A stretch of 35,393 nucleotides of DNA from Candidatus Kuenenia hertensis. GTDB lineage: Bacteria > Planctomycetota > Brocadiia > Brocadiales > Brocadiaceae. The notes under the pieces were generated by a model that made no database searches, was not told the origin of the DNA, and worked only from the letters and a program-made list of their open reading frames with translations. A program made the translations under genes and the position numbers. Location of the stretch: contig SOET01000042.1 in NCBI GenBank assembly GCA_021646465.1, positions 1 through 35,393 on the forward strand. Reading direction: 5' to 3'. This document shows, piece after piece, positions 1,639-35,393 of the stretch (position 1 is the first letter of the stretch; each line of letters opens with the position of its first letter).

Positions 1639-1833
1639 ATGGAATATTTTGATTTCAATATTGATGAAGCGAAGGCGGAAGTTTGCCTTGCGGAAATTGA
1701 AACAATCGGGCGGCTAATGTCTCTGGCGGGTGGTTATCCTGCTTTTGTCATTAAAGGTGTTGAAGTGGGGATAATCGGCGGTCGGCTGGCAAAAGCGGCC
1801 ATGGAATTAAGGAAATTTTTGGAGGGTGAATAA
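1639..1833 (+). CDS. Small hypothetical protein between the two integrases
   Basis: A 64-residue protein (MEYFDFNIDEAKAEV...) with a Gly-rich, weakly hydrophobic middle (GGYPAFVIKGVEVGIIGG) and a charged helical end. It starts at ATG 1639, 13 bases after the first recombinase, with AAGGGGTG as ribosome binding site. It ends one base before the start of the second recombinase. The arrangement mirrors the small ORF at 367 and suggests an accessory factor translated with its recombinase. No family is recognised. Confidence 0.6.
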   Translation: MEYFDFNIDEAKAEVCLAEIETIGRLMSLAGGYPAFVIKGVEVGIIGGRLAKAAMELRKFLEGE

Positions 1834-1834
1834 T

Positions 1835-3007
1835 ATGGCAATACGTTGGAGAAAGTATCATAAAAAATGCAAGGGTAAGCGAAACGAAGGGGACAGATAC
1901 GGCAAGGTTGTAGAAAAGGGTATCGAATGCGAAGGAAAGCGGGGTAAGAATTGTCCTGAAGGTGTACCTTCACCTTGCGGGGCATGGTCGATTGACTACC
2001 GTGAAATTGACGGCAGATGGGTTTCAAAGGTCTTTCCAGGCATATCAAAAACAGAAGCAAAAGAACGGCTGGAAGATATCCGGTCAAACATCCGAAGGGG
2101 TCTTATCGGCTTACCACAGACAAGAAAGATACCTACTTTAAAGGAATATACTGAAAAATATTTAGAGCTTTCCGGGAACGACAAGGAAAACACGAGACTG
2201 GCAAAACAGCGGGCGGTTAAGGTTTTAGTGAAATATCTTGGGGATTACAAACTAGACAAGATTACACCGTTCATTATTGAGAAATTCCGCATAGAGAGAC
2301 AAGATAAAGACAGCGTCAAACCTTCTGCTATTAATATGGATACGGCGTTTCTTTCTAATATGTTCAATGTTGCAATAAAACAGGGCATTCTTGATAAGAA
2401 CCCATGCCAGAATGTCAAACGGTTAAAGGTAGCACAAATGAAAGATCGTATTCTTTCACAAGAGGAAATATCCTTATTGCTGGATAAACTGCAAGGTAAA
2501 GATCGTTTGATGGTCTTGATAGGTCTTTTTACCGGATTACGGCTAGGCGGTATCCTATCGCTTTCATGGACGGATATTGATTTCAATAAGGGGCTAATAC
2601 ATTCTAACCATAAAACTGGTAAGATGGTATCAATCCCTATATCTGATTATTTATCCGGTGAATTACGGAAGTGGAAGGAAATTAACTCTGGTAGCAGGTT
2701 ATTTGTTGAAGGAAAGGTAACCCAAAAGGTAGTAGCAAGATACAGCACGCATTTCAGCAACCTATTTAAGAGCTTGGGTATTCAGGATTTTACCTTTCAC
2801 AATCTGAGACATACCTTTGCAAGTATCCTACAGGGTGACTTGGGTATTGGTGCGGTAGTGGTGCAAGGTATGACCGGGCATTCTAGTTTGGGAATGTTGC
2901 AGAAATATTCCCATAGCGGTTTGGATTCAAAGAAAACTGCTATTGATGCCCTGACTGAACATATTTTAAATGCTACACCAGAGGCCGTTTTATCCATAGC
3001 AAAATAA
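1835..3007 (+). CDS. Phage-type tyrosine recombinase (integrase 2)
   Basis: A 390-residue site-specific recombinase. The start at ATG 1835 is chosen because GGAGG at 1821-1825 lies 9 bases before it. The N-terminal 60 residues are Lys/Arg-rich with four Cys (12, 32, 40, 48), followed by an arm-type DNA-binding segment (GAWSIDYREIDGRW), a SAM-like core-binding domain (about 105-190) and a catalytic domain. The catalytic set is complete: Arg in TGLRLGG, Lys in NHKTGK, HNLRHTF, TGHSS, and Tyr in QKYSHSG. The usual Glu three residues after the first Arg (TGLRxGE) is Gly here. It is clearly diverged from integrase 1, so the pair is not a simple duplication. It is not an IntI type; I see no IntI-specific insertion. 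Confidence 0.88.
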   Translation: MAIRWRKYHKKCKGKRNEGDRYGKVVEKGIECEGKRGKNCPEGVPSPCGAWSIDYREIDGRWVSKVFPGISKTEAKERLEDIRSNIRRGLIGLPQTRKIPTLKEYTEKYLELSGNDKENTRLAKQRAVKVLVKYLGDYKLDKITPFIIEKFRIERQDKDSVKPSAINMDTAFLSNMFNVAIKQGILDKNPCQNVKRLKVAQMKDRILSQEEISLLLDKLQGKDRLMVLIGLFTGLRLGGILSLSWTDIDFNKGLIHSNHKTGKMVSIPISDYLSGELRKWKEINSGSRLFVEGKVTQKVVARYSTHFSNLFKSLGIQDFTFHNLRHTFASILQGDLGIGAVVVQGMTGHSSLGMLQKYSHSGLDSKKTAIDALTEHILNATPEAVLSIAK

Positions 3008-29411: not shown

Positions 29412-30233
29412 ATGTCAAATACAATACAATTAAACGATTTTTCGATAGGCGGGACTGAATTATTTTTTATTGCAGGACCTTGCATTATTGAGAGTGAAGA
29501 AAGTTGCTTGCGATTAGCGGAAGCATTAAAGAATATTTTTCAGGAAAATAATGTGCCCTTTATCTTTAAAGCTTCATACGACAAGGCAAACAGAACCTCG
29601 ATTCATTCATACAGAGGACCCGGCGTCGCCAAGGGTTTGAGAATATTAAGTGAAATTAAGAAACGTTTAAAGATTCCAATTTTGTCCGATGTTCATAGCG
29701 CGGAAGAGGCGTCAATGGCTGCTGGCGTACTTGATATTATTCAAATTCCTGCTTTTTTGTGCCGTCAGACAGATTTAATCCTCGCAGCAGCAAAAACTGG
29801 TAAACCCGTCAATGTAAAAAAAGGGCAATTTTTAGCGCCGTGGGACATGAAATCAGTTGTTGAAAAAATCAGAAGCACCGGAAACGAACAAATTCTGCTC
29901 ACAGAGCGCGGCGCATGCTTTGGGTATAATAATTTGGTGAGCGATATGCGTTCCCTGATTATTATGAAAACGCTAAATTGTCCGGTCATTTTTGATGCTA
30001 CCCACAGCATACAGCTTCCTGGCGGGCAAGGGAATATGTCGGGAGGCGACAGAACTATGATAAAACCGCTTGCAAGGGCTGCTGTCGCCACTGGAGGGTG
30101 TGACGGGCTCTTTCTGGAAGTGCATGAAAATCCTGAGCATGCCCTTTCTGACGCTGCCACGATGCTGCCATTAAGTGAATTACCATCTCTTGTAAAACAA
30201 ACAGTTGCTATTTATAATGCGGTTACGGAATAG
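29412..30233 (+). CDS. kdsA: 3-deoxy-D-manno-octulosonate 8-phosphate synthase
   Basis: A 273-residue Kdo-8-phosphate synthase, which joins phosphoenolpyruvate and arabinose-5-phosphate for lipopolysaccharide core synthesis. Motifs: FIAGPCIIES, FKASYDKANRTS, SDVHSAEEA, QIPAFLCRQTDL, NVKKGQFLAPWDM, RGACFGYNNLVSDMR and FDATHSIQLPGG. The Cys in GPC, with His in ATHS and the Glu/Asp of EVHENPEHALSD, indicates the metal-dependent class (the metal-independent class has Asn in place of Cys). Its presence implies a Gram-negative-type envelope. It is the last gene of the co-directional block. Confidence 0.93.
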   Translation: MSNTIQLNDFSIGGTELFFIAGPCIIESEESCLRLAEALKNIFQENNVPFIFKASYDKANRTSIHSYRGPGVAKGLRILSEIKKRLKIPILSDVHSAEEASMAAGVLDIIQIPAFLCRQTDLILAAAKTGKPVNVKKGQFLAPWDMKSVVEKIRSTGNEQILLTERGACFGYNNLVSDMRSLIIMKTLNCPVIFDATHSIQLPGGQGNMSGGDRTMIKPLARAAVATGGCDGLFLEVHENPEHALSDAATMLPLSELPSLVKQTVAIYNAVTE

Positions 30234-30428
30234 AAAGGCAGGAAAACAACGGGTACTGCGTAATGCAAAGCAAATCTGTCTCTTTAGAGGAAAAAACAGA
30301 AAGCTCCCTCTATCAAGTTTACAGTTAGACAATTTTTTGCTGAACAAAATGGGAGATGCGGCGGAAAAAGGTGATACAAGAAGGGTAGGCATAGGGGGGC
30401 AAATCTACGTTTAGGAATTTCTATCTTT

Positions 30429-30456
30429 GTAGGGGCTGAAGATTTTCAGCCCCTAC
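30429..30456. repeat. REP hairpin (GTAG...CTAC, GGGCTGAA type)
   Basis: GTAGGGGCTGAA (30429-30440), loop GATT, TTCAGCCCCTAC (30445-30456): a perfect 12-base stem. An almost identical copy lies at 34824-34851, differing only in the loop. It could also act as a 3' hairpin for the kdsA transcript. Confidence 0.8.
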
Positions 30457-30557
30457 GTTGAAATGTTTTATCCCATAAAGCCGCCGAAGGCCTAATTTAT
30501 TATATAGCCAAAAAAATCTGATTTTAGAAATGTAGAGGTAATTTGGTTTTATAAAAA

Positions 30558-30581
30558 GTAGGGGCGAAGCATTTGCCCCTG
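30558..30581. repeat. Degenerate REP hairpin (GTAGGGGC...GCCCCTG)
   Basis: GTAGGGGC (30558-30565) and GCCCCTG (30575-30581) form a 6-base stem (AGGGGC/GCCCCT) around GAAGCATTT. It resembles the GTAGGGGCGAA...CCCCTAC dispersed repeats and is a shortened or decayed relative of the 30429 copy. Confidence 0.55.
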
Positions 30582-30702
30582 TTCGGCATAACTTTTTCAG
30601 TAGAACCTAGTTGGCCCACACACAACAGCAAAAAAGCTATGACTAAATTAATTCGGCATTGTCTATAAACTTATCAATTACTGGTTAGCTCAAGAGTATT
30701 TT

Positions 30703-31377
30703 ATGAAATTCACACTCGAAAAAAATTTTAAAGCAAGTGATCTGTTGACATCCTTGACAATCATAGTGTCAGTAATTGCTCTAATCATTACGTGGACCAA
30801 AGATCGCGATCTTAGGGTGCGCGAACAGGCCGATCGCATTCGGACTGCCGGCGCCGAAACTCTTGCCAAGCTTGAACGATGGCAAGCCTTGCAACTCTCA
30901 CTCTATGATCAACTCCAACCTGTTTTGGTTGAAACAAGTGAGATGCTGGATAGAGAATTTAACATCATCGTCGCAAGGGATTATCTGTGGAAACAGATAA
31001 ACGCTGAACACACGCAGATATCCTCGAAAGTTTTGGAAGAAGGATTTGAAACGGCGTATGTGGATCTATTTGCTTACTACCCGTCAATAAGGCAAAAGTT
31101 TCTTGATGTTGTAGATAGCTTGAAAGCATCGGAGCAAAATTCTGTAGAATCCTTGCTTTTAAATACGCAGGACGCAATTACATCATTCCAAGGTAAAAGA
31201 TCTACATACTCGACTGCGCAGCTCGGAAACGCTCTCCGCGCTGCTTTGGCCCATACTCGGAACAAATTTGTACAAGATACTAACTCTTCGTTAATGCTAA
31301 TCCGGGACCAACTGTATACACTTATAAGCACTCCGGATAAAGATCTAATTCATAACAAGGCAGTGGCATTGAAATAA
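30703..31377 (+). CDS. Membrane-anchored coiled-coil-like protein in a cassette-like unit
   Basis: A 224-residue protein with one N-terminal membrane segment (about 14-30, LLTSLTIIVSVIALIIT) followed by a mostly helical, charged domain with no recognised motif. It is flanked by complementary sequences TGGTTAGCTC (30682-30691) and GAGCTAACCA (31384-31393), and followed by an attC-like hairpin, as expected for a single-gene integron cassette. The start ATG 30703 lies only 11 bases after the boundary, typical of cassettes, and has no strong ribosome binding site. Function unknown. Confidence 0.7.
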   Translation: MKFTLEKNFKASDLLTSLTIIVSVIALIITWTKDRDLRVREQADRIRTAGAETLAKLERWQALQLSLYDQLQPVLVETSEMLDREFNIIVARDYLWKQINAEHTQISSKVLEEGFETAYVDLFAYYPSIRQKFLDVVDSLKASEQNSVESLLLNTQDAITSFQGKRSTYSTAQLGNALRAALAHTRNKFVQDTNSSLMLIRDQLYTLISTPDKDLIHNKAVALK

Positions 31378-31383
31378 AACGAC

Positions 31384-31443
31384 GAGCTAACCAACCACTG
31401 ATGCGGACGCGAAAAACAGCGCCGCACAGTTCAATCGTTCGAC
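31384..31443 (+). other. attC-like integron recombination site
   Basis: It begins GAGCTAAC (AAC at 31389-31391) and ends CGTTCGAC (GTT at 31437-31439). Between them ACTG (31397-31400), TGCGG (31402-31406) and CGC (31408-31410) pair with GCG (31419-31421), CCGCA (31422-31426) and CAGT (31427-31430). This leaves A31401 and A31407 extrahelical on the same strand, around an 8-base loop. Length (60 bases), AAC/GTT ends and bulged bases match the structure of attC sites. The outer arms are not complementary to each other but the 5' arm is complementary to the cassette's own start, as recombination predicts. Confidence 0.65.
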
Positions 31444-31466
31444 AGCAATACCAGAGGAGAAAAGAC

Positions 31467-32477
31467 ATGGGCGATGATCAATCAAGAATGGAATTCTACA
31501 AACAGATGTTTGGGGGAGCTTGGATCACCCAGGGGTTGTGGGTTGCTGCTGAATTAGGAATCGCGGATCTACTTGCAGATGGACCCTGCAAAGTGGAAGA
31601 ACTGGCCGCAAAGACGGGCGCGCACGCGGGTTCTCTGTATCGCGTGCTGCGCGCGTTGGCAGGCGTCGGCGTGTTTTCGCATGACGGCCACGGGAGATTC
31701 TCTCTGACCCCATTGGCGGATTTGCTGCGAAGCGACGTGCCCGGTTCGCAGCGTGCACTTGCGATCCTGATGGGCGGAGAGTTTCACGCCGCCTGGGGCG
31801 AACTGCTGCATTCAGCAAAGACCGGAGAACCGGGGTTCAACAAGAAATTCGGCATGCCCTTCTTCCAGTACGTGGCGGAGCACCCAGACCGCCACGATTT
31901 CTATGATGCGGCCATGGAGGGTGTTCATGGGAGGGAGACCCAGCCAATGCTGAATGCCTACGACTTTTCCGCCTTCGGAACCGTGATTGATGTCGGCGGC
32001 GGAAATGGGTCCACTGTGGTAGGCATTCTTGCCCGGCATCCAGCGGTTCAAGGCATACTCTTTGATCTGCCCGCAGTCGCGGAGCGCGCGCGATCGGGCC
32101 TTGTGGGATCAAACCAGGCAAACCGGTTGCACGTTGTCGGCGGGGACTTCTTCTCCGCTGTTCCAGGCGGTGCGGATGTCTATCTGCTGCGGCATGTCAT
32201 TCATGACTGGCTGGATGAGGACGCCGTGTCCATCCTTCGCAACTGCCGGGATGCGATGTCGCCGGGGGCAAAAGTGCTCGTCGTGGAGATGGTGCTTCCG
32301 TCCGAAAACGAGCCAAGTTTCGGCAAGTGGCTCGATCTCATGATGCTTCTGGTCGCGGGCAAGGAACGGACGGAGGCGGAATACAGCCAGTTGTTCACGG
32401 ACGCGGGCCTACGCATGACCCGCGTGATTCCAACGGAGTCGGATGTCAGCATTGTCGAGGGGGTGCCAGCATCGTGA
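31467..32477 (+). CDS. SAM-dependent O-methyltransferase, family 2
   Basis: A 336-residue methyltransferase of the hydroxyneurosporene/acetylserotonin O-methyltransferase type. The N-terminal winged-helix dimerisation domain (WVAAELGIADLLADGP, LYRVLRALAGVGVF) precedes a Rossmann domain with DVGGGNGSTV (SAM binding), LFDLPAV, GGDFFSAVPGGADVYLLRHVIHDW (read as GGDFFSAVPGGAD then LRHVIHDW; the second His is the likely base) and VLVVEMVLP. The substrate is probably a small phenol or hydroxyl compound and is unknown. ATG 31467 follows AGAGGAG. The gene is strikingly GC-rich (around 60 %) compared with its neighbours, indicating recent transfer. It begins 24 bases after the attC-like site. Confidence 0.87.
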   Translation: MGDDQSRMEFYKQMFGGAWITQGLWVAAELGIADLLADGPCKVEELAAKTGAHAGSLYRVLRALAGVGVFSHDGHGRFSLTPLADLLRSDVPGSQRALAILMGGEFHAAWGELLHSAKTGEPGFNKKFGMPFFQYVAEHPDRHDFYDAAMEGVHGRETQPMLNAYDFSAFGTVIDVGGGNGSTVVGILARHPAVQGILFDLPAVAERARSGLVGSNQANRLHVVGGDFFSAVPGGADVYLLRHVIHDWLDEDAVSILRNCRDAMSPGAKVLVVEMVLPSENEPSFGKWLDLMMLLVAGKERTEAEYSQLFTDAGLRMTRVIPTESDVSIVEGVPAS

Positions 32478-32660
32478 TTTCCCTCCGCGCCGTGGAATGC
32501 CGGTGAAGCCCTTCCCTTGGGGAAAATAGGGACAGCGACCGTTTTATGGGTCAAGTATATTATTCTATCTTGCCATCAAAGATATTAAAAGCGACTTATC
32601 ATGAATCATATTGGGAGGGTTCTGGGGACGCCCCAAGAATGAAGAAAGGAAGTGTGTGAA

Positions 32661-33140
32661 TTGAGCACAAATGGTAGGATCCGGAATAGCCGTGTTAAAG
32701 GGACTGTTGCGGGCAGAGCCATTGCGTTGGCAGTGATCCTGGCTATCGGACTGATGACGAAGGGGTGTGCGGTATTTGTTGTTGGTGCTGCTGCCGGTGC
32801 AGGTGCCGCTGGCGTAGCTTACGTCAAAGGGGATATGCGGGCTTGCGTGAAGGCAGATCCACGTGCTGTCGAGAAGGCATCTGTAAAAGCGTTTGAAGTC
32901 TTGGATATCCACAAGGTCTCGTCTGGTAGCTCCGCCCTTGATGCAGAGGTGGTTGGGCGAACGGCAGCCGAAATGAAGGTTACAATCAAGGCGAAAATTG
33001 AGGCGACAGGTGAGAGTTCCGTGACCATTCGTGTTGGCACTTTCGGCGATGAACCACTGAGTCGCAGGATATACGATGAAGTCAACACGCACCTGCCTGA
33101 TGCCATACGTGAACTGGAGAAGGAACTGAAAAGCAAGTAA
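32661..33140 (+). CDS. DUF3568-like lipoprotein or exported protein
   Basis: About 159 residues. The N-terminus has a hydrophobic stretch (AIALAVILAIGLM) ending in TKGCAVFVVGAAAGAG, like the C-x-G-rich start of DUF3568 lipoproteins (Cys, then GAAAGAG, then VAYVKGD). Lys two residues before the Cys makes the lipobox atypical. The rest alternates strands and helices, with many Lys/Glu (VEKASVKAFEVL, AEMKVTIKAKIEATGESSVTIRVGTFGDEP; read in two parts) and ends in a charged helix. TTG 32661 is preferred because AAGGAAG lies 8 bases upstream; GTG 32652 is too close to it. An attC-like site follows immediately. Confidence 0.65.
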   Translation: MSTNGRIRNSRVKGTVAGRAIALAVILAIGLMTKGCAVFVVGAAAGAGAAGVAYVKGDMRACVKADPRAVEKASVKAFEVLDIHKVSSGSSALDAEVVGRTAAEMKVTIKAKIEATGESSVTIRVGTFGDEPLSRRIYDEVNTHLPDAIRELEKELKSK

Positions 33141-33141
33141 C

Positions 33142-33203
33142 CATAACAAGGACATTGTGCACAACGCCATAAACCCGTTGTGACATATAACAGACGTTAG
33201 TTG
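33142..33203 (+). other. attC-like integron recombination site
   Basis: AAC (33146-33148) and GTT (33197-33199, in GTTAGTT) frame a hairpin: TGT (33157-33159) plus CACAACG (33161-33167) pair with CGTTGTG (33177-33183) plus ACA (33184-33186), leaving G33160 extrahelical, around a 9-base loop. Overall length about 62 bases. This repeats the plan of the site at 31384-31443 with different bases, as attC sites do. It starts directly after the stop codon of the preceding gene. Confidence 0.55.
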
Positions 33204-33283
33204 CGCCGGGGGATATTAACATATAGTGCAGTATTAAGTACAATATTAAGGGTAGGTTTTGAATTTTCTTGATAGAAAAATGG

Positions 33284-33757: not shown

Positions 33758-33965
33758 ATCACGCTCCTTCCTTATCTGTTGTCATCTGACGGTAACATAA
33801 ACGATATTAAGGCAAAGAATACAAAGAAAATCAACAAGAAACTACTCCGTTCTTCGTATCCCATTGCTGAATTCTGGTAAGAGTGCGATCCATAGGGCAA
33901 ATCCATGGGGTCGAACCTTCATAATTTAATTAACAATCTCCGGGTAATGGATAAAATGAAGACCT

Positions 33966-34448
33966 ATGGCAAGATCATTACGATTGGAATTTGAAGGCGC
34001 ATTTTATCATATCACATCAAGGGGCAATCTGAGAGACAGCATATTCTTTGATGATAAAGACAGGGAAAAGTTTCTGGAGATATTAAGAAGAACAAAAGAG
34101 AGGTATGGCTACCTCCTCCACGCATATGCCTTGATGGAAAATCACTATCATCTTTTTCTGGAAACCCCAAAGACTAATATCTCTCAGATCATGCAAAATA
34201 TTAACACAAGTTATACGGTTTATATAAACAAAAGGCATAAGAGATACGGTCATCTCTTTCAAGGAAGATTTAAGGGAATAATTGTGGACAAAGAATCATA
34301 CTTAATTGTCCTATCCAGATACATCCACTTAAATCCGGTACGAGCCAGAATCACACAATCAGGGTCAGTCCTTCATATTTCAATCATGATGGTTTTGCTA
34401 AAATACCACATTTTATTCATTGTTCGTAGTTTGCCAGTTGAAATATAA
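33966..34448 (+). pseudogene. Truncated Y1 (REP-associated-like) transposase
   Basis: The 160-residue frame starts with a normal Y1 transposase: MARSLRLEFEGAFYHITSRGN, ENHYHLFLETP (HxH at 60/62), TYTVYINKRHKRYGHLFQGRF-like segments and the catalytic Tyr in LSRYIHLNPVRA (about 119). After NPVRARI (about residue 128) the sequence no longer resembles the family, which normally continues with a WSSY-type region and a C-terminal domain. The remaining 30 residues run into unrelated DNA next to an IS remnant, so the 3' part was lost by rearrangement. It is only distantly related to the RAYT at 16557. Confidence 0.8.
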
Positions 34449-34685: not shown

Positions 34686-34823
34686 ACCGCTTAAGGCGCG
34701 TAAACTTTGTATAAACCGTGTCTTTTTTTTATTGGTTTCCGCTAAAACAGTCAGGTAGGATTCCCACTCGTGCTTCCGGTTGGTTTTTATATATAATTTC
34801 CTTCAAAAATAGATTATTGTCGT

Positions 34824-34851
34824 GTAGGGGCTGAAAATCTTCAGCCCCTAC
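34824..34851. repeat. REP hairpin (GTAG...CTAC, GGGCTGAA type)
   Basis: GTAGGGGCTGAA (34824-34835), loop AATC, TTCAGCCCCTAC (34840-34851): a perfect 12-base stem, identical in both arms to the copy at 30429-30456. Confidence 0.8.
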
Positions 34852-34968
34852 GTTACGATATAAATCATTGTAATAATTATTGATTTTTATCCCCTTTTGT
34901 GAACCGAAGGTTCATGGGGGGGGCACCTGAAAATACTTTTTTACCGCAGAGGGCACGGAGAATGCGAA

Positions 34969-35322: not shown

Positions 35323-35393
35323 GCCCGCGTAGCTCAATTGGCGGAGCACGTCATTCGTAATGATGAGGTTGTCGGTTCGACTCCGATCGCGGG
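35323..35393 (+). tRNA. tRNA-Thr(CGT), cut by the window end
   Basis: The cloverleaf is complete apart from the 3' end: acceptor GCCCGCG (35323-35329), D arm GCTC/GAGC, anticodon stem CGTCA/TGATG (35349-35353, 35361-35365) with loop TTCGTAA and anticodon CGT, and T arm GTCGG-TTCGACT-CCGAT. The 3' acceptor strand CGCGGG ends at 35393, one pairing base short, so the discriminator and any CCA lie beyond the window. The anticodon CGT reads ACG threonine codons. Confidence 0.95.

Follow-up and report, generated by a model that had tools for sequence, protein, structure and literature searches.

Background

In integrons the integrase IntI recombines the folded bottom strand of an attC site with a double-stranded attI site, and attI normally lies divergent to its integrase gene. 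Foreign cargo is normal for the cassettes. CALIN and single attC sites, both without an integron integrase, are classes recognised by IntegronFinder (PMC9024848), and degenerate chromosomal integrons that have lost intI are known from Treponema phagedenis (PMC3607928) and Xanthomonas (PMC12444791). Cassette arrays that lack an integrase are still open to mobilisation by a functional IntI acting in trans (PMC12444791). Descriptions of attI sites other than those of class 1 integrons are poor, and IntegronFinder 2.0 looks for no such sites (PMC9024848). The presence of intI in Kuenenia is already known (PMC3607928).

Here we analysed a window (the whole stretch of DNA, 35,393 bp) that is contig C40 of a draft genome, designated G000, which comprises 89 contigs and 4.17 Mb. 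Hydrazine synthase alpha is encoded in G000, which is thus the genome of an anammox bacterium. An initial annotation, made from the letters alone, had described a run of three gene cassettes with two attC-like sites and no visible integrase, and suggested a detached array captured from another organism. We conclude, with a probability of roughly 0.86, that the locus is a degenerate chromosomal integron comprising an attI site, at least one inserted cassette and probably a second cassette without its attC, with no integrase at the locus (Table 1).

The locus and its flanking genes

The locus lies between a kdsA-like gene of the DAHP_synth_1 family, which is syntenic in G001, G002 and many relatives, and a tRNA gene, apart from which Rfam at the gathering threshold reported nothing in the whole window. 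Most relatives have no insert at this position: in at least 15 of them, belonging to other genera, the kdsA-tRNA distance is roughly 100-380 bp, mostly about 150 bp, and the two genes are likewise adjacent in G001, which is of the same genus as G000. The distance is 5.1 kb in G000 and 3.3 kb in G002, a sister genome of the same genus in which kdsA and the flanking tRNA are syntenic with the window.

Table 1 Features of the locus and of the remainder of the window
Feature	Position	Strand	Evidence and remarks
Two neighbouring phage-type tyrosine recombinases	726-1625 and 1826-3007		Phage_integrase, far below IntI cut-off of 265 bits
kdsA-like gene (DAHP_synth_1 family), left flank, outside integron	29412..30233	+	Pfam PF00793, E 2e-71
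Lineage-specific insert, kdsA to attI, 366 bp	30261..30626	.	Absent from G002, where kdsA joins attI directly
attI	30610..30686	+	60 bp shared with G002 at 93% identity; homologue of the attI next to intact G010 C11 IntI
Gene cassette 1, 753 bp, linear form TTAGCTC...CAATCG	30685..31437	+	Starts at attI GTT
Cassette 1 ORF, 224 aa, hydrophobic segment near N-terminus	30703..31377	+	ORF list
attC (site 1)	31385..31443	+	R'' AGCTAAC 31385-31391, R' GTTCGAC 31437-31443, bulges A31401 and A31407
Probable cassette 2, start TTCGACAGC, attC lost, right end uncertain	31438..32500	+	Begins at attC crossover
O-methyltransferase gene (Methyltransf_2 and Dimerisation)	31467..32477	+	Pfam PF00891, E 9e-50; ATG 31467 after GAGGAG
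DUF3568 putative lipoprotein gene	32652..33140	+	Pfam PF12092, E 3e-20
Second attC of the initial annotation, rejected, short hairpin only	33141..33202	+	Profile and covariance model
tRNA, right flank, anticodon CGT by eye	35323..35393	+	Rfam RF00005

The insert between kdsA and attI has taken the place of the upstream half of the attI region, which is retained by G002, where attI starts at most about 20 bp from the end of the kdsA-side homology. With its upstream half replaced in this way, the attI of the window may be inactive. Short palindromic repeats of a TAGGGGCTGAAGATTTTCAGCCCCTACG type and a GGGGCGAAGCATTTGCCCC type occur within this insert and near the right end of the locus (window 30430-30460, 34822-34856 and 30559-30581) and also in relatives. 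An IS200-like/Y1 transposase gene at 33966-34448 is apparently a recent arrival; DNA copies 83-92% identical to it are found in several relatives, with three in G012.

The attC site and the first cassette

To identify attC sites we used two models trained solely on the integrons of other organisms, without any sequence of the window's genome. IntI proteins of related genomes were aligned and used to retrieve 80 integrase loci of named bacteria, most of them unrelated, and class 1 plasmid integrons were added. An attC profile with fixed 24-nt left and 22-nt right arms was trained in rounds to 101 sites, and an Infernal covariance model (R1) was built from a 44-sequence set.

The profile gave a single match in the window, site 1, at a score of 35.3, whereas none of 60 shuffled windows exceeded 20.3. 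Run without filters on the entire window, R1 assigned the same site 35.0 bits (E 2.7e-6); the next best match reached 10 bits. In the genome-wide scan the site ranked ninth among 22 matches (E 3.2e-4). It is an imperfect palindrome of R'', L'', L' and R' with AAC...GTT ends and fixed spacing. The hairpin with bulged bases on one arm that the initial annotation had described was recovered here, the predicted fold having two single bulged bases confined to one arm.

The boundaries of the first cassette lie at the crossover GTTs, and comparison with G002 reveals its precise junction. Its two ends are exactly complementary over 10 bp (TGGTTAGCTC, 30682-30691, and GAGCTAACCA, 31383-31392), as had been noticed from the letters, which fits cassette circularisation. 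Counted from the GTT, the cassette start pairs with its own R'' over 8 bp (GTTAGCTC / GAGCTAAC), a length seen at 2% of GTT positions drawn at random from this sequence. On circularisation the start completes its own R', and the rejoined attC has a profile score of 37.2. Judged by sequence, one cassette (30685-31437) can be taken as proven. Its protein matched no family in Pfam, NCBIfam or PADLOC, and relatives were absent from 58 related genomes, plasmids and viral contigs.

The probable second cassette and the genes downstream

The methyltransferase gene starts 29 bp past the cassette junction, and its best NCBIfam match, TIGR02716, is below the cut-off. At 58.6% G+C, against 39.6% for the window, it fits foreign cargo. 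Neither the profile nor R1 found an attC after it in the window, and it is probably a second cassette whose own attC has been lost. An R''-type match for this cassette, GTCGAAC, occurs only near 33911, has no attC structure and was taken as chance. Homologues of the methyltransferase in G004 are at contig ends or without a good attC, and hence do not settle its status as a cassette. Right after the gene, a 63-bp stretch (32549-32611) is repeated at 89% identity elsewhere in the genome (C19:3482-3544), and insertion of this repeat may explain the loss of the attC. The missing attC of cassette 2 and the undefined right limit of the integron both count against the reading of the locus as a degenerate integron.

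No cassette-type start or cassette boundary was found for the DUF3568 gene. Its homologues in relatives are distant (30-37% identical) and both sister genomes are without one, so that the gene looks acquired. The attC-like site that had been placed after it scored -17.5 with the profile, and R1, run without filters, did not list it even at a threshold of E 10. An alternative R'' for this site, GCAAGTAAC, pairs well with GTTAGTTGC, but the spacing of the inner stem is wrong and no matching cassette start exists. Since this second site is background, the proposed run of three cassettes reduces to one proven and one probable cassette, with the third unsupported, although the three genes do lie on one strand as described.

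The failure of the second site also demonstrates that hairpins found by eye can be background, and it could be asked whether the whole locus is a chance resemblance with no integron feature whatever. The E-value of site 1 under an independent model and the junction seen by comparison with G002 leave that reading a negligible likelihood.

An attI family in anammox bacteria

The attI site at the start of the first cassette was overlooked in the initial annotation. Its core (30658-30686, ATTGTCTATAAACTTATCAATTACTGGTT), with the crossover between G30684 and T30685, belongs to a pattern, GTTATCTATAAACTTA[TA]CAATTACTnGTT, that is conserved across anammox genomes. The 60-bp stretch shared with G002 at 93% identity ends at window 30686 (...TTATCAATTACTGGTT), and in the alignment of the copies conservation stops at the crossover GTT, with unrelated cassettes following. 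Occupying the 60-120 bp before the GTT, the element was found in G002, three times each in G001 and G010, and once in G046. Further copies in G056, G058 (up to three) and G059 extend it within the same order, including to another family, some of these matches being weak; the reversed pattern had zero matches in 75 genomes. At four loci (L270, L271, L273 and L226, in G056, G058 and G046) the left box recurs in inverted orientation upstream of the core, for instance TTATAGATAATATG...CATATTATCTATAA, a possible accessory binding site for the integrase or for a regulator.

An intact 519-aa IntI is encoded on contig C11 of G010; the element lies divergent to it and just upstream, its end about 65 bp from the open frame. 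Two further copies, G001b and the one on contig C13 of G010, adjoin frameshifted IntI remnants that are 68-92% identical to this protein. For the remaining copies the fetched sequence contains no intI. A profile of the core scored 38.8 for the window, with a null 95% of 7.8 and a null maximum of 14.9. Upstream of integrases of the same type it detected sites that all end in GTT, on C79 of G000 (14.5) and in G052 (21.1), G036 (12.4 and 10.8), G055 (11.0) and G056 (7.3, against the null 95% of 7.8). Integrases outside the clade gave background scores below 7. In the integrase tree every integrase with the attI motif falls within one nine-protein clade (support 100/100), two members of which, in G030 and G017, have no attI upstream that the core profile recognises. 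Individual scores of the diverged sites are modest, and the argument rests on the exact end at the C79 cassette junction and on the agreement with the tree.

This conservation bears on whether IntI instead placed a circular cassette in an ordinary chromosomal GTT outside any attI, as in non-classical attG insertion. The insertion type is documented (Loot et al. 2024, as cited in PMC11023631; discussed in PMC12444791), and a precise GTT junction, a single attC with no intI nearby and the single attC sites scattered over G000 all agree with it. The 60-120 bp before the junction, however, are conserved as an element which, at other loci, is accompanied by integrases of one clade, intact or wrecked, and has taken up unrelated cassettes; an ordinary site would lack such conservation. 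We therefore regard attG insertion at this locus as very unlikely and largely refuted, although it may account for other single attC sites in G000.

Pairing of the sequence after the GTT with the R'' of the adjacent cassette measures 8 bp in the window and also at G010 C13 and in G059, 10 bp at both G001b and G001c and 7 bp in G002, and is absent at the other attI copies. The 7 bp of G002 alone are not significant, being reached by 22% of random GTT positions, yet the attC of G002 was found by the model; only the 5' half of the attC is left at G001b and G001c.

Upstream of the core, homology of the copies to the intact G010 C11 integron ends at 117, about 180, 260, 300 and at least 899 bp, and such varied ends suggest that the copies decayed by deletion and were not spread as discrete mobile units. 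They weigh against the alternative that attI copies spread as discrete platforms without intI, docking sites for one integrase acting in trans, as does the survival of intI fragments beside some copies, again as in deletion decay, and the finding that, despite three copies in G001, none of the matches listed for that genome is an intact integrase of the matching clade. Dispersal would nonetheless suit the absence of intI from the fetched sequence of most copies, their number per genome (three each in G001 and G010, up to three in G058) and the different cargo on the same intI-less attI in two species. That many detached attI sites of anammox genomes still serve as docking sites, refilled in trans by one distant integrase and offering several entry points, is a tentative and rather doubtful proposal, compatible with the data but not favoured by them.

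Integrases and other integrons of the genome

No IntI above the cut-off of 265 bits is encoded on the 35-kb contig and no remnant occurs near the attI; the window does not hold a complete integron, with intI at the locus. The earlier statement that an integrase is missing thus stands for contig C40 but not for the genome, which encodes two intact IntI-family proteins above the curated cut-off (C31:77553-78488 and C79:128866-129801). A third gene of the family, at C63, is broken. The recombinases near the start of the contig, correctly set apart from IntI at the outset, are perhaps the remains of another mobile element.

Contig C79 carries a complete integron with an intact 507-aa IntI, an attI and cassettes with six to seven attC sites (C79:131390-137720), the first cassette having the start GTTATGAGC and the R'' GCTCATAAC. 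The genome scan with R1, one of the checks that the initial annotation had proposed, returned 17 attC sites at E<0.006 over at least nine contigs, many of them single. Besides the C79 array about ten are scattered, singly or a few together, on C3, C31, C60, C66, C72, C83 and C85, and some of these may have arisen by attG insertion or be what is left of further integrons. The outcome that the initial annotation had named as refuting it, background scores at both sites with no additional attC in the genome, therefore did not occur, although one of its two sites failed.

In the clade integrases at C79:128866-130383 and G010 C11:3488-5044 the IntI core is preceded by an N-terminal extension of some 100-190 aa. 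The broken gene at C63 (L044 18482-19070) is of a second integrase type, about 60% identical to the IntI of G005 and G053 and split into N- and C-terminal pieces. It sits near attC-like sites, and C63 is another decaying integron.

These findings leave little room for a detached array captured as foreign DNA from another organism. The contig without intI, the G+C-rich methyltransferase and a cassette 1 ORF with no relative in 58 related genomes had made that origin plausible. The cassettes are, however, anchored on an attI whose family is native to the order and which occupies the same kdsA-tRNA locus in G002, and G000 has intact integron integrases of its own, so that we consider foreign capture of the array highly improbable.

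Different cargo in a sister genome and a proposed history

In G002 the attI at the same kdsA-tRNA locus carries two cassettes that differ from those of the window. The first runs GTTGGGCAG ... GCCCAACAAGGGC...CGTTATAT and the second GTTATATTC ... AATATAACAAG. As the same site holds different cassettes, its cargo has changed since G000 and G002 diverged. No trace of intI was found at the kdsA-tRNA locus in either genome.

The simplest history is that an integron was present here in the ancestor of G000 and G002, that intI was deleted and that the cassettes changed afterwards. Cassette 1 would have been inserted by an integron integrase through attI x attC recombination between G30684 and T30685, and later deletion of intI would have left the attI and its cargo behind. 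The absence of intI here from both G000 and G002, together with the difference between their cassettes, makes it probable that an integrase acting in trans exchanged cassettes once intI had gone. Within G000 the best candidate would be the C79 IntI, which has an intact frame and belongs to the right clade, making action in trans possible in principle, and whose attI has the same AAAC...GTT architecture. This protein is just 62% identical to the integrase whose attI best matches that of the window, and about 16 of the last 24 positions are shared between the C79 and window attI sites. As far as sequence comparison goes, the different cargo could also reflect a longer ancestral array with different losses, gene conversion from one attI locus to another or separate losses of intI in the two lineages.

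Comparison with known integrons

As a kind of locus, an integron that has lost intI is known, and the anammox attI family appears to be undescribed. In the open-access literature, which omits most subscription papers, we found general integron work, CALIN and mentions of intI in Kuenenia only, and nothing that describes this attI family or a genome with several orphan attI sites. What the comparison provides is an attI family covering a whole integrase clade, whose short core can serve as a search pattern. If orphan attI sites are still usable, integron counts based on intI only would miss entry points for horizontal gene transfer.

The window resembles a CALIN in its attC-bearing cassette without a nearby integrase gene. 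It differs in having an identifiable attI that abuts the first cassette, and its one attC falls short of the default threshold of two. With attG insertion, as Loot et al. (2024) are cited for it, the locus shares a cassette away from intI and a G|TT junction, the difference being that the junction here falls within a conserved attI and not in an ordinary chromosomal site. The genome's own sedentary chromosomal integron (C79:128866-137720) has the same organisation of an attI ending in GTT and attC cassettes, and the same integrase clade, but has an intact IntI and about seven attC sites, whereas the window has no intI and one attC.

Closest are the degenerate integrons of Treponema phagedenis and Xanthomonas, in which intI is likewise gone and attC cassettes persist at a chromosomal locus. 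In contrast to these, several attI relics of one type occur per genome here, and sister species differ in the cassettes held by the same intI-less attI, a natural case for testing recombination in trans by a distant integrase.
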